Part shown: positions 337-5,999 of the stretch, piece after piece
How the letters are laid out: every line of letters begins with the position of its first letter
Numbering within the stretch: the stretch's first letter is position 1
NCBI GenBank assembly: GCA_017461065.1
Contig: JAFTZC010000035.1
Location: 1-52,353, forward strand
Origin: Clostridia bacterium
GTDB taxonomy: Bacteria > Bacillota > Clostridia > Christensenellales > DTU072
Direction: 5' to 3'
Length of the DNA stretch: 52,353 nucleotides
The notes under the pieces: model-generated
The model's input: the letters and a program-made list of their open reading frames with translations, nothing else
Databases searched by the model: none
What the model was told of the DNA's origin: nothing
Program-made: the position numbers and the translations under genes

Positions 337-3300
337 ATGGCAATCGAAAGAAAAGAGCAAGATTTAAAAAATATCAAAGAGTTTAAGGGAGCAAGTCGTT
401 CTTCATCTAAAGGTAATAAGCTGAATGCTAAAAAGATAGGCTTAAAGTCAACGTTAATTTTTAATGATAAAATTGCCTTGACGTCTTTTGCTAAGGATAA
501 AACCAATTCAAAGAATAGTTCAAACGTGGAATCAATTACCTCAAAAACAGGTGACATCGTTTATAGCCAAAATCCCACATTATTTAATGCGATTGTTACC
601 AAAAGTGACATTAACTTAGTTCCACTCAAGAATGATATTAAAAAAGTAGTAGGTGGAAAGGTTTCAATGGCAAATCCTGCTAATGGTGTTGTTAGCAAGG
701 ATTATGTTGGTATCAAAGGAGCATTGGAGCTTAAGTACTTCGGTAAAGTATTTTCTAATGATAATATTCACGTTCAGATAGCTTATAACGTAGCAGACGT
801 AAAGAAGATTCTAATTCCATACGTTGAACAAATTATATACCTTTGTTACAATTTAGATAGAAAGAAAATAGACGTAGCCGGTGAGGAATTTAAGCGAGAC
901 GTGATTGGTACGACTTATTTTCAAAGTTCCTATAAGAATTTTAAGTCTTTAATGGAATCATCAAGTTCACATACTGCATTGAAGAATCTTGCAAAATTAA
1001 ATGCAGTCAATGCTCTTTTGGATAACTATCCTGTTTATTATTCCTATTTTGGAGACGTTTTCCGTACTCCTAAGAAAGGCAAAGGCGGTAAGCTTGATTA
1101 TAATTCTATTTTAGAGTCTCAAGACTATAATTATAATGTTTTCCGTACTCTTTCAATGATTAGACAGGCTTGCACACATGAGAAAGTTGTGGGAACAAAC
1201 GTATTGGCTGAGAAATTTTTATATGACTTTTCTGCCCCTAAGAGTGTATGCCCTGATTTATATGAATTTATAGAAGGCTTTGCAAAAAAAGAATTTCAAG
1301 CAGTGAATGCGGATTTTTGTAAAAATGCTGGCAATAACTTATATATTCTTAGCAATTTATATCCCAAAATATCTTTTGGTGAATTAGTTACTAATTATTA
1401 TAAGTACGTTGTTATTAAAGAAAATAATAACTTAGGAATTAATTTGCGTTTAGTTAGGGAGATTATTCTCTACTATTTTATGCCGGAATTAAAGGACAAG
1501 GAGTATGACAGTTATCGTTCAAAGATATATACAATTATGGGGTATGTAATCTACAATCATCTAAAAGGAAGTGAAAAGCTTGAAGAGATCGTTAATGAAT
1601 TGCGGGCAAATGCTTCGGAAGATGGTAGAATCCAAATATATTCTGATTTTGCTGAAATGCTATGGAAGGAAATTGCACCTTTAATGCAAAAAGTTGTTGC
1701 TTTGTTGCGCGATGAAATGGAGAGAAAGGGTGCCACAAGAAATGGTACGCTTACGGCAATTGAAATCACCGAAGATAAGATAGCTGATTGCTTGCAATCA
1801 TCAAAGAAAATGTCATATTTTGCAAAGCTATTATTGTTTGTTTGTAAGTTCTTAAATGGTAAAGAAATCAATGAGCTTTTAACAAATTTTATAAACAAGT
1901 TTGATGGCATCGCAGATCTTATTTATAGCGCCAATAAGTGTGGTTATAGAATTTGTTTTTCTCCTGAATTCAAAGAATTAGAAAAAGCACGTGAAATAGC
2001 TGAGGACCTACGAATAATTAAAAACGTAGCACGTATGAAACGAGAGGGAGGTACTTATACCGGTCAAATGCTTGTTGATGCAGTTAATTTGTTGGGTATT
2101 AAAAGTGCTGTTTTGACAAAAGAAGACGTTGAGGGAAGTGCTCTTTCTCCTAATGAATCTAAAGCATTTTTAGATAGACTAAATAAAAACGCCAACAATC
2201 ATCAATTGAGGAACTTTATTATAAACAACGTTTTGAAATCAAAGTGGTTTTTCTACATCATTAGATATATGAAGCCGGAAATATGCGCTACCCTTATGAA
2301 AAATCGTAGGCTTGTTTCATTTGCAATAGGGGAAATAAATGATGCTCAGATAGTTAGGTACTATCAATCTGTACAAGGTATCAAGCTGGAAACGAATAAT
2401 TTGAAAGAGGGTAGACAGCTGCTTGCTAAAATGCTTTCGGAATTCAACCTTGATTCCGTTATGAATACTATTGAAAATATGGACAAAAAAGCCTATGCCA
2501 CACAGTCGCCTGATTCTCAAAAAGAAAAGAGTAAAGCACTGGTTACATTGTATTTAACAGTTGCATATTTAATAGTCAAAAATATAGTTCAAATTAACAC
2601 TCGTTTTAGTATTGCTATGAGCTGTTTGGAAAGAGATTTGAATCTTTTGGGAAGAAGTCCAGAAGACTTGCTCGCTCTAACTACTCGTTTTGCTGAAAAA
2701 GATGCTCTACTTATTTCTAAATACAACAGTCTTAGAGATAGTATACGCGACGCATCTATTTCGAACGAGCAAAAACGTGTGGAATATAAGCGACTAAAAG
2801 AATTTCAAAAAGACATGCATTTTTCATTGCATCACTATTATTGTGTAAAGTCTAATTTAGAAACAGCAAAGTCTATCGAATCACTTTTAAGGGATTTTAG
2901 AAACGTCGTAGTGCATATGGGCGCTGTTAATTCATTCCCAAAATATGTTCAAGATATTGGAGCCATAAGCTCATATTACGATGTTTATATGTACACAATT
3001 CAAAAAATATTGGTTTCCAAAGCTCTTCAATCAAGGAATGAATCGATTTTGGGCTTTGCTCAAAAATACGAAGAGCTCTTGAGTAAGCATAATACCTATG
3101 TAAAAGATTTTACTTGGATTATCAACGCACCTTTTGCTTACAATATTGCAAGATATAAGAATCTTAGTATAAAGGATCTATTCTACAATGAGAAAAGTAA
3201 AGAAAAAATTAGTATGGGAAGTGCACCTTCCTCTCCCATAAAACCAACTGTTGAATTTGATGAGGTTACTGAAGAAATTGAAGAAGAGGAAGAATTTTAC

Positions 3301-3543
3301 TTTGGTTATAAAATAGGACAAAACGTGCTTATGGTAAACGTAGAAGCAACTGCTCGTAAAGGCTTACGTGGGGTTATTAAAGATACGGAATTGAAAGTTA
3401 CAGTTTCGCCTGCAATGGTTTTAGAAAGTGGATTACCGGCTGAAACCTACGTAGGTAAATCGTTAATGGTTTCTTTGTTGGACTGGAATGAAGGGCCTAA
3501 AGCATTTAGTTCCGAAATTATTGACAAAAACACTCAAATTTAA
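337..3543 (+). CDS. cas13d: CRISPR-associated RNA-guided RNase Cas13d (type VI-D) with a C-terminal extension
   Basis: This 1068-residue protein is the single effector of a class 2 type VI-D CRISPR system. Cas13 processes pre-crRNA, binds complementary RNA and then cleaves RNA through two HEPN domains. Both catalytic HEPN motifs are intact: R276-QACT-H281 and R855-NVVV-H860. Other Cas13d-like stretches are KYFGKVFSNDNIHVQ near residue 130, GKEIN-LLTNFINKFD near 510, and HNTYVKDF followed by YNIARYKNLSIKDLF, which ends at about residue 949. Known Cas13d proteins end near this point, at roughly 920-1000 residues. Here about 118 residues follow: a Ser/Pro and Glu-rich linker (E-E-I-E-E-E-E-E) and then a beta-rich segment (about 990-1060) ending V-G-K-S-L-M-V-S-L-L-D, which could be an OB/S1-like RNA-binding fold (inference). 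The N-terminal 75 residues are Lys/Ser-rich. The start is set by GGAGA at 326-330. The CRISPR array begins 11 bp after the stop; no cas1, cas2 or WYL gene is nearby. Confidence 0.95.
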   Translation: MAIERKEQDLKNIKEFKGASRSSSKGNKLNAKKIGLKSTLIFNDKIALTSFAKDKTNSKNSSNVESITSKTGDIVYSQNPTLFNAIVTKSDINLVPLKNDIKKVVGGKVSMANPANGVVSKDYVGIKGALELKYFGKVFSNDNIHVQIAYNVADVKKILIPYVEQIIYLCYNLDRKKIDVAGEEFKRDVIGTTYFQSSYKNFKSLMESSSSHTALKNLAKLNAVNALLDNYPVYYSYFGDVFRTPKKGKGGKLDYNSILESQDYNYNVFRTLSMIRQACTHEKVVGTNVLAEKFLYDFSAPKSVCPDLYEFIEGFAKKEFQAVNADFCKNAGNNLYILSNLYPKISFGELVTNYYKYVVIKENNNLGINLRLVREIILYYFMPELKDKEYDSYRSKIYTIMGYVIYNHLKGSEKLEEIVNELRANASEDGRIQIYSDFAEMLWKEIAPLMQKVVALLRDEMERKGATRNGTLTAIEITEDKIADCLQSSKKMSYFAKLLLFVCKFLNGKEINELLTNFINKFDGIADLIYSANKCGYRICFSPEFKELEKAREIAEDLRIIKNVARMKREGGTYTGQMLVDAVNLLGIKSAVLTKEDVEGSALSPNESKAFLDRLNKNANNHQLRNFIINNVLKSKWFFYIIRYMKPEICATLMKNRRLVSFAIGEINDAQIVRYYQSVQGIKLETNNLKEGRQLLAKMLSEFNLDSVMNTIENMDKKAYATQSPDSQKEKSKALVTLYLTVAYLIVKNIVQINTRFSIAMSCLERDLNLLGRSPEDLLALTTRFAEKDALLISKYNSLRDSIRDASISNEQKRVEYKRLKEFQKDMHFSLHHYYCVKSNLETAKSIESLLRDFRNVVVHMGAVNSFPKYVQDIGAISSYYDVYMYTIQKILVSKALQSRNESILGFAQKYEELLSKHNTYVKDFTWIINAPFAYNIARYKNLSIKDLFYNEKSKEKISMGSAPSSPIKPTVEFDEVTEEIEEEEEFYFGYKIGQNVLMVNVEATARKGLRGVIKDTELKVTVSPAMVLESGLPAETYVGKSLMVSLLDWNEGPKAFSSEIIDKNTQI

Positions 3544-3554: not shown

Positions 3555-3920
3555 GTACAATACTGGTGTAAAATTACACTAGTCTAAAACTAGTTGTTTG
3601 TTTTGACGATTAGTACTTCTGTACAATACTGGTGTAAAATTACACTAGTCTAAAACTTTCATTGAAGTCGAAATCTAACATTGTTGGTACAATACTGGTG
3701 TAAAATTACACTAGTCTAAAACTAGCCGTCAATTTCTTGAATAATGCCGTAGGTACAATACTGGTGTAAAATTACACTAGTCTAAAACGGGGCATATTGT
3801 ATCTAAGAAATACTATCAGTACAATACTGGTGTAAAATTACACTAGTCTAAAACTGAGTCATCTATTAGACTCACGGTGTTTAAGTACAATACTGGTGTA
3901 AAATTACACTAGTCTAAAAA
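3555..3920 (+). CRISPR. Type VI-D CRISPR array, 6 repeats and 5 spacers
   Basis: Six 36-nt repeats start at 3555, 3621, 3687, 3753, 3819 and 3885. They are identical except that the last base of the sixth is A instead of C. The five spacers are all exactly 30 nt (3591-3620, 3657-3686, 3723-3752, 3789-3818, 3855-3884). Each repeat begins GTACAATACTGG and ends AGTCTAAAAC. Arms ACTGGTGTA and TACACTAGT form a 9-bp stem (one G-U pair) with an AAAT loop, leaving a 3' CTAAAAC next to the spacer. This matches the Cas13d crRNA layout of a 5' repeat handle ending in AAAC. The orientation equals that of cas13d. The degenerate sixth repeat marks the distal end, so new spacers would be expected at the cas13d side. 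Confidence 0.97.
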
Positions 3921-4048: not shown

Positions 4049-4657
4049 ATGAAAAAGAAAGTTTATACAATAGGATATACTTGTTTGCCTATAGATTCCT
4101 TCGTAAAGGAATTACAAAGGTATGGCATTACTTGTCTTGTAGACGTGCGCAGTATACCAAAATCAACTTATTTTAAAGATTTTGATAAAGAAACTCTCAA
4201 TTTAAGATTGAATCAAGAAGGCATATTGTATAGAAATTATGCTTTTGAATTTGGTGCTCGCCAAGATAACCATAGTCTTTATCCCAATGGGTATTTAGAC
4301 TTTGAAATTTTTTCTAAAACTGAAAACTTTATGCAAGGCATATCTAAATTAAATGCCGGCATAGAATTAAAACAAGTTTTTGCGCTAATGTGTGCAGAGA
4401 AAGACCCTTATAATTGTCATAGATGTATAATGGTTTCACGTTTCTTACAAGATTATGATTTTGAAGTTTATCATATTGTTGGAGAAGACCAATTAGTATC
4501 TCAAAAAGAAATAGAAGCACGATTAGTTGATGAATATTTTCCAAACAGAAATCAAGTTTCACTGTTTTCAGAAAACAACTTGTCTGAGGAGGAATGTTTA
4601 GTTTGTGCTTATAGGAAACGGAATGAAGAAATAGGTTTTAAAATCGAGGAAGAATAA
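4049..4657 (+). CDS. DUF488 family protein, first of a tandem pair
   Basis: A 202-residue protein if started at ATG 4049 (MKKKVYTIGYT). An in-frame TTG at 4001 would add 16 hydrophobic residues, but it lies upstream of the -10 box and has no ribosome-binding site. The family signature is clear: YTIGY at the N-terminus, a central LVDVRSIP-S, a DLxxRLNQEGI-Y-like segment, and the C-terminal Cys block L-M-C-A-E-x-D-P-x-x-C-H-R. The conserved Asp/Arg of DVR and the C-(x)n-CHR cluster are the likely active or metal-binding residues. The biochemical function of DUF488 is not established. A Cys-containing tail (E-E-C-L-V-C-A-Y-R-K) follows the core. The next gene, also DUF488, starts directly after the stop, so the two are translationally coupled. 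Base use is more AT-rich than in the housekeeping genes. Confidence 0.85.
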   Translation: MKKKVYTIGYTCLPIDSFVKELQRYGITCLVDVRSIPKSTYFKDFDKETLNLRLNQEGILYRNYAFEFGARQDNHSLYPNGYLDFEIFSKTENFMQGISKLNAGIELKQVFALMCAEKDPYNCHRCIMVSRFLQDYDFEVYHIVGEDQLVSQKEIEARLVDEYFPNRNQVSLFSENNLSEEECLVCAYRKRNEEIGFKIEEE

Positions 4658-5098
4658 ATGAAGTTATTTACAATCGGATTTACACAAAAAAATGCGAGGA
4701 AGTTTTTCGGTTTATTACAGAAAAATGGTATCAAAACAGTTGTCGATATAAGACTGAATAATACCTCTCAGCTTGCAGCGTTTGCAAAAGGGGAGGACTT
4801 GAAGTTTTTTTTGACAGAGTTTTGCGCAATTGACTATATTCACGACGTAACATTTGCCCCAACTGAAAGTTTACTTAAAGATTACAAATCTAAGAAAGTT
4901 TCTTGGTATGATTATGAAAAAGAATTTGATCGTATTATGTTAGGGCGTAATATTAAGAACCACATTCTAAACAACTATTCTAATAAAGACTCTATTTGCC
5001 TTCTATGCTCAGAAGCTCTTCCGAATCAATGTCATAGAAGACTTGTGGCTAATATTTTTAAAGAGACTTTAAACGATGTAGAAATTGTTCATTTATAG
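4658..5098 (+). CDS. DUF488 family protein, second of a tandem pair
   Basis: A 146-residue protein whose ATG abuts the TAA of the preceding DUF488 gene, so the pair is probably co-translated. It begins MKLFTIGFTQKNARKFF, has VVDIRLNN in place of the usual VDVRS, and ends with LLCSEALPNQCHRRLVA, the family's C-x-E-x-x-P-x-x-CHR motif. It is shorter than its neighbour and diverges from it, so the pair is not a recent duplication and may form a heterodimer (inference). Its stop overlaps the ribosome-binding site of the next gene (AGGAG, 5097-5101). No enzymatic activity can be assigned from sequence. Confidence 0.85.
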   Translation: MKLFTIGFTQKNARKFFGLLQKNGIKTVVDIRLNNTSQLAAFAKGEDLKFFLTEFCAIDYIHDVTFAPTESLLKDYKSKKVSWYDYEKEFDRIMLGRNIKNHILNNYSNKDSICLLCSEALPNQCHRRLVANIFKETLNDVEIVHL

Positions 5099-5108
5099 GA
5101 GCGTCGTA

Positions 5109-5999
5109 ATGCAAAGGGTTCGATTGGTGATTCTTGCAAAGTCTTATAAGCAAGGTGGATATTGCGTTGCTGGATTAAATCTCTTTAATGGAGAATGGAT
5201 TCGTTTGGTTTCGAGTAGAGGCCATGATAATGCTATCTCAAAATACGCTATGGATAGCAGGAGCATTAATTGTTTGGATATTGTCGATGTTGATTTGATA
5301 GAGCACGTCCCATTGGCGTGTCAAAAAGAAAACTTCCGAGTTTATGAAGAAACTGGGATTATAAAAACGGGTAAGTTGGGCTTGGAAGATGTTGTTAACG
5401 AGATGAATCTAGACAAGCCTAATTATATTTTTGCAAACAGCGACAAATATATATTCGCTAGAGATGTAAAAGAATTAAATAGGTCGTTATTATTTGTAAA
5501 AGTTTCAAATTTTCAAGTTACAACAAAATCGAATTTTGAAACGGATAAACCCAAATTTAAATGTTCATTTTGTTACAATAATACCTATTATGTTAATTTA
5601 AGTTTGACAGATCCGAATTTTTGCAGCCTTGACAAAGTTGGAAAGGTGCTTAGATCAGCGGCCTTGGTTATAAGTTTACCAAGTAAAGCGTATGAAGATG
5701 GGGCTTTTTATAAATTTGTTTCAAGTGTGTTTCCTTTGGAGGAAATGGATGGGATTAGTTCCAAAGCTTCGGAGTATATCCCTACTTGTAAAATCTATCA
5801 CGTATTAACGCCGGATGGAGAGGAAACATTCTATCATTCAAGCTTTAATATAGATAAGTTTGACTCTCTTGGATATACAAAGATATCGGATGAACATTTG
5901 TTTTATCAAGTAGTTTCGGACAAAGCAATAGGGGATATCTTCTATATAAATAAAGAAAAATTTGAAGTTGTTTCAATTTCAGTAGAAGAAATATTTTGA
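5109..5999 (+). CDS. Dual-OB-domain-like protein of the DUF488 cassette
   Basis: A 296-residue protein if started at ATG 5109, which has AGGAG at 5097-5101; a TTG at 5085 lies inside the preceding gene. The N-terminal half begins RVRLVILAKSYKQGGYCVAG, then L-F-N-G-E-W-I-R-L-V. This resembles proteins annotated as dual OB-domain proteins, with two small beta-barrels that would bind nucleic acid or nucleotides. A second beta-rich segment starts near residue 150 (K-F-K-C-S-F-C-Y-N-N-T-Y-Y-V), and a third region closes with F-Y-I-N-K-E-K-F-E-V-V. It is the last gene of the DUF488 operon and is followed by a terminator. Family assignment is by recalled similarity and beta-rich pattern; the role is unknown. 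It shows no WYL motif, so it is not the usual type VI-D accessory. Confidence 0.65.
   Translation: MQRVRLVILAKSYKQGGYCVAGLNLFNGEWIRLVSSRGHDNAISKYAMDSRSINCLDIVDVDLIEHVPLACQKENFRVYEETGIIKTGKLGLEDVVNEMNLDKPNYIFANSDKYIFARDVKELNRSLLFVKVSNFQVTTKSNFETDKPKFKCSFCYNNTYYVNLSLTDPNFCSLDKVGKVLRSAALVISLPSKAYEDGAFYKFVSSVFPLEEMDGISSKASEYIPTCKIYHVLTPDGEETFYHSSFNIDKFDSLGYTKISDEHLFYQVVSDKAIGDIFYINKEKFEVVSISVEEIF

Follow-up and report, generated by a model that had tools for sequence, protein, structure and literature searches.

An additional conserved C-terminal domain in a Cas13d from a Clostridia bacterium

Cas13d, the effector of type VI-D CRISPR systems, is a widely used RNA-targeting enzyme, prized as compact and self-contained. 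According to passages of PMC13288109, most VI-D loci encode a separate accessory protein, WYL1, which passages of PMC6547453 portray as an Sm-like beta-barrel that binds single-stranded RNA (ssRNA), with the proposed role of presenting RNA to Cas13d. In the UrCas13d and EsCas13d structures, as covered in excerpts of PMC6559982, the C-terminus lies at the processing site for precursor CRISPR RNA (pre-crRNA), by the nucleotide at the 5′ end of the repeat; the same excerpts give K905 as essential and R802 as important for pre-crRNA processing in UrCas13d. Here we analysed a 52,353-nt stretch of Clostridia bacterium DNA (contig JAFTZC010000035.1 of assembly GCA_017461065.1; the whole stretch is called the window), whose Cas13d continues into a further domain. 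This extra domain is real, and is homologous in two Cas13d from different bacterial families.

The cas13d open reading frame (337-3543, forward strand; stop codon 3541-3543) encodes 1068 residues. The Cas13d model NF038189 spans residues 28-949 with 577.3 bits against a cut-off of 150, and PADLOC called the protein Cas13d at 625 bits. Six solved Cas13d among the PDB sequences matched it, and alignment ends were printed for four of the six, the two RfxCas13d ends not being among them: in the window protein, UrCas13d ends at residue 958, two EsCas13d at 950 and 950, and DjCas13d at 951. Since these alignments end at residues 950-958, residues 951-1068 (3187-3540) are extra. A preliminary description of this DNA had ended the Cas13d-like core near residue 950 and counted about 118 further residues, with a Ser/Pro segment, an acidic run and a hydrophobic block, all of which was confirmed. 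The tail consists of the following parts:

3187..3306, + strand: linker, residues 951-990, with Ser/Pro segment and acidic run; unconserved (5% identity to locus L018).
3307..3519, + strand: conserved C-terminal domain, residues 991-1061, predicted to be a small beta domain (BLASTP to the L018/L004 tail; models; structural matches).
3358..3417, + strand: most conserved block, KGLRGVIKDTELKVTVSPAM, residues 1008-1027 (12/20 residues identical to L018).

The tail homologue belongs to the 1029-residue Cas13d of L018 (the same locus as L004, in genome G121), which belongs to a different family within the order. Between the two proteins, identity is 41% over the core (residues 28-950), 5% over residues 951-990 and 35% over residues 991-1061, so that a linker free to drift can be told apart from a domain under constraint. 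The tail is thus made up of two parts rather than one, a refinement of the preliminary description. BLASTP of the domain against the L018/L004 tail gave 35% identity over 71 residues (48.9 bits, E 7e-14 in a single comparison). Aligned locally, the two domains scored 116, above all 2000 shuffles (mean 24.7, sd 4.5, maximum 51), indicating a likeness beyond chance. The level of identity in KGLRGVIKDTELKVTVSPAM was reached by 18% of the protein's 20-residue blocks; this block is thus on par with good core blocks and unexceptional. Residues 951-1068 matched no Pfam family (E up to 10), no NCBIfam family (E up to 1) and no PDB sequence (E up to 10), and gave no profile match to the WYL domain (PF13280; E up to 10).

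An origin of the tail in misassembly, a frameshift or a mis-called stop is extremely improbable. The assembly is incomplete (78.6% complete), and the contig starts 336 nt upstream of cas13d; however, the frame is open, tail GC content (0.362) and GC content at third codon positions (0.254) lie inside the ranges measured along the core (0.280-0.370 and 0.212-0.398), and the same architecture is found in an independent assembly. We also considered an autoregulatory or protective lid, in which acidic linker and domain would cover the HEPN or processing site, restraining activity or shielding the enzyme from phage inhibitors. The window linker is indeed strongly acidic (residues 951-986, net charge −8), and its exit point from the core would be close to where pre-crRNA is processed. 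The L018 linker, however, carries a net charge of +1 and the linker is unconserved, so that an acidic lid is no common feature, and we regard this explanation as improbable.

To place the tail among Cas13d, a five-sequence alignment was run against GTDB 220, each species being represented by a single genome. This gave 38 Cas13d loci, which together with the window make 39 rows; the scan used two peptide patterns and misses Cas13d carrying neither. An earlier species scan with a single protein as query had found nothing. Duplicate loci are, besides L018 and L004, L022 and L005, L023 and L003, and L037 and L016. Judged by reading-frame ends, the long tail is present in the window and L018 only. 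Beyond the last core motif, or the end of the BLAST match, the 37 tail-less rows continue for 6-45 residues; one of them, L055, has a broken, prematurely ending frame, and its end was not judged in this count. A six-frame search of the loci with a domain profile returned strong matches only for the window, L018/L004 and their copies, the next-best scores being short frames in L068, L059 and L066 (E 0.005-0.010), loci that stem from the domain-profile run on the order given below, and these we judged to be chance. In all, the domain was detected in 2/39 rows.

Maximum-likelihood phylogeny of the 39 cores pairs the window with L018 as sisters (support 100/99), and their end branches are long, at 0.82 and 0.95 changes per column. 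Among the rows examined, the domain is confined to one clade. The simplest history read from these sequences is that a small Cas13d clade probably gained it once and then retained it for long. A near-neutral addition without an important role would fit the absence of a tail from 37 of the 39 rows, but the domain has been kept at 35% identity over these long branches while the adjoining linker fell to 5%, which indicates purifying selection and makes this reading decidedly improbable.

Counting the window's own genome, Cas13d was found in 1/40 genomes of the window's family, 4/396 of the order and 3/391 of the class, one of the last three being a weak match under the cut-off. When the order was searched again around G303 (sample of 396), three Cas13d genomes came up, none new, and in the family of G121 the only carrier among 20 genomes was G121 itself. 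A two-row domain profile run on 297 genomes of the order gave 14 matches at E 0.1, the best beyond G000 and G121 reaching E 0.014 and judged to be chance; a single-protein tail search of 58 relatives gave 12 at E ≤ 1, and beyond the window's own none fell below 0.019. No tail homologue was confirmed in viral contigs (queried with the whole Cas13d and the domain) or in phages (whole protein and domain). In plasmids, none was confirmed with the homologue's domain, and the window tail gave one chance-level match (E 0.6). No Cas13d with such a domain appeared among the titles and abstract openings of the literature covered, a weak negative as these did not include the founding Cas13d papers, and the term 'C-terminal' is absent from PMC9554183, on metagenomic Cas13 discovery.

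Two side observations were made among the loci. L051 (1145 residues) and L048 (1038) have long stop-to-stop frames with short C-terminal ends, their surplus lying upstream of or inside the core. In L005/L022 (G160), a divergent Cas13d of the order, NF038189 matches in two pieces, positions 3-508 and 553-880, about 84 residues apart, corresponding to an insertion or a strongly diverged mid-protein stretch.

We then modelled the fold of the domain. Each domain model was built from the two-sequence alignment in five versions, and fold searches were run on the window model. The best window model (mean predicted local distance difference test score, pLDDT, 64.3) has the strand order b-b-b-a-b-b, as in the OB fold. 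With this model, VIA-align listed 50 rows, 10 of them with S1 in the title, and no Z above 4.8; by the tool's own remark, Z below 8 may reflect merely a common arrangement. Most of the other rows are proteins that we take to bear S1 domains (RNase R and II, eIF2-alpha, Spt6, NusA, GSP13). Foldseek returned nothing under E 0.48, with five S1 or S1-like rows ranked high (probability 0.54-0.72). When the homologue domain was compared with Pfam, S1 (PF00575) came first (E 0.038, 14.8 bits, under the cut-off of 22), and an OB family scored E 0.059. On balance we regard the predicted OB/S1 fold as somewhat more likely than not. The OB/S1 likeness proposed in the preliminary description is partly supported, by the topology of the window model and not by the sequence and profile tests or the homologue model described below, and it makes a sensible lead.

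The part this domain might play is suggested by where it is attached. The relevant features of the rest of the locus are:

337..3186, + strand: Cas13d core, residues 1-950 (NF038189, PADLOC, HEPN motifs).
1162..1179, + strand: HEPN-1, RQACTH, residues 276-281 (RxxxxH pattern; R276 and H281 invariant in the five-sequence alignment).
2899..2916, + strand: HEPN-2, RNVVVH, residues 855-860 (RxxxxH pattern; R855 and H860 invariant in the five-sequence alignment).
3157..3159, + strand: K941 of the RYKN motif, aligned with UrCas13d K905 (alignments), ten residues ahead of the tail start.
3555..3920, + strand: CRISPR array, 6 repeats of 36 nt and 5 spacers of 30 nt (repeat spacing 66 nt).

In the solved structures the Cas13d C-terminus is at the processing site, which would bring the domain up against the 5′ end of the repeat, and because UrCas13d K905 corresponds to K941, ten residues before the tail, a tethered domain would start beside the cut site of the array RNA. 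We tentatively favour, at a little short of an even chance, a clade-specific tethered RNA-capture module, a small OB/S1-type barrel near the pre-crRNA processing site. Here we infer the barrel fold, RNA binding, position and effect of the domain. About 70 residues on a flexible linker would form the small OB/S1-type beta-barrel; this predicted domain would bind RNA with low specificity; placed beside the 5′ end of the repeat, it would hold the array transcript or a single-stranded target RNA and so increase local concentration. S1 domains help RNases, and the proposed role is analogous, as it is to the one put forward for the separate WYL1 with other Cas13d. It is possible, though we hold it more doubtfully, that the domain is a cis-acting counterpart of WYL1, a natural fusion of Cas13 with an RNA-binding domain, tuning array processing, target search or collateral cleavage.

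Several findings weigh against RNA capture. Only 2/5 window models pass pLDDT 60 (64.3 and 60.2, the other three scoring 47.4, 46.0 and 44.8). Modelling of the homologue domain was unsuccessful (mean pLDDT 47.1), a helix taking the place expected for strands 1-2, and the window and homologue models agree in the last three strands only. Among the Foldseek matches at like E-values are unrelated proteins, pyruvate kinase for one, with low probability, and for the homologue an Ig-like Pfam family is nearly level with S1 (E 0.048 vs 0.038). A significant S1 or OB signal is absent from the sequence by every test applied: the window domain had no match to Pfam S1 (PF00575) at E 10, hhalign gave a probability of about 1% against 30 S1 domains of relatives and 0.2-0.3% against 19 other OB domains, and the S1 profile score was reached by 403/2000 shuffles of the window domain and 39/2000 of the homologue. 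Further, the window domain has net charge 0 (the homologue domain +4), its surface not being strongly basic as for RNA binding, the placement at the processing site is borrowed from other Cas13d, and two members in all are known with the tail.

The most substantial alternative is that the domain is a protein-protein docking module (for a partner, the ribosome or self-association) without RNA binding, placing Cas13d near translating mRNA or a partner. Small beta domains commonly dock proteins, the window domain is charge-neutral, and its structural matches include GSP13 and ribosomal protein S1. Set against this, the residues common to both domains include basic R21, R25 and K34 (numbering of the window/L018 domain alignment). 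No shared partner gene is known either, a weak point since the L018 reading frames were listed but not profile-searched. We consider docking unlikely, though by no means negligible.

We rejected the idea of a tail making up for a lost second processing residue (UrCas13d R802). This position, in a column chosen by eye, is His in the window and L018, and likewise in tail-less L019, L020 and L022. Separately, the position of the processing lysine in the RYKN motif is Tyr in L046, Asn in L054 and Arg in L035; judging from these substitutions, the arrays of these Cas13d relatives may be processed differently or not at all.

Apart from its effector end, the locus is an ordinary type VI-D locus. Both HEPN RxxxxH motifs are intact, and the effector is active-looking, with RNA cleavage predicted. 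The array starts 12 nt past the cas13d stop on the same strand; its repeat forms a 9-bp stem capped by a 4-nt loop (z −3.9), and the final repeat differs in its terminal base. In L018, cas13d is also directly followed by two array repeats, the first of which folds into the same hairpin type. An exact match in viral contigs to a 20-23-nt core was found for none of the five spacers, and against phages they matched at chance level only. Spacer 5 (3855-3884) contains an internal inverted repeat, GAGTC...GACTC, spotted by eye.

Past the array, three genes (4049-5999) encode two DUF488 proteins and one DuOB (dual OB) protein, which match the PADLOC candidate defence families PDC-M45B, M45C and M45A. 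They form a candidate defence cluster adjoining the VI-D locus; the genes beyond DuOB look like housekeeping genes. The genome's two WYL proteins sit on other contigs and both look like ordinary regulators. A WYL gene occurs somewhere in 32/38 Cas13d genomes, a count from which we draw no inference, as adjacency to cas13d was not mapped.

Taken together, a natural clade that keeps an extra domain over long divergence suggests a selectable route to altered RNA handling without a separate protein. Like EsCas13d, UrCas13d, RfxCas13d/CasRx and DjCas13d, the window protein has a core that aligns over most of its length and two RxxxxH motifs, and like known type VI-D systems it is accompanied by an array beside cas13d with a 36-nt hairpin repeat; unlike EsCas13d, UrCas13d and DjCas13d, it extends past the alignment ends. 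In comparison with the S1 domains of ribosomal protein S1, RNase R, RNase II, PNPase and GSP13, the tail has no significant sequence match. WYL1 is a separate protein, whereas the tail is fused in cis and lacks a WYL profile match; if the domain binds RNA, it would offer a handle on why some VI-D systems might manage without WYL1, and a module already tested by evolution, at hand for altering Cas13d activity. Artificial fusions of this kind exist: work cited in excerpts of PMC11110701 raised the collateral activity of Cas13a by inserting an RNA-binding domain, and work cited in excerpts of PMC13288109 stabilised dCas13 complexes with a dsRNA-binding domain. Beside these engineered proteins, the window Cas13d would be a natural counterpart, if its domain binds RNA.
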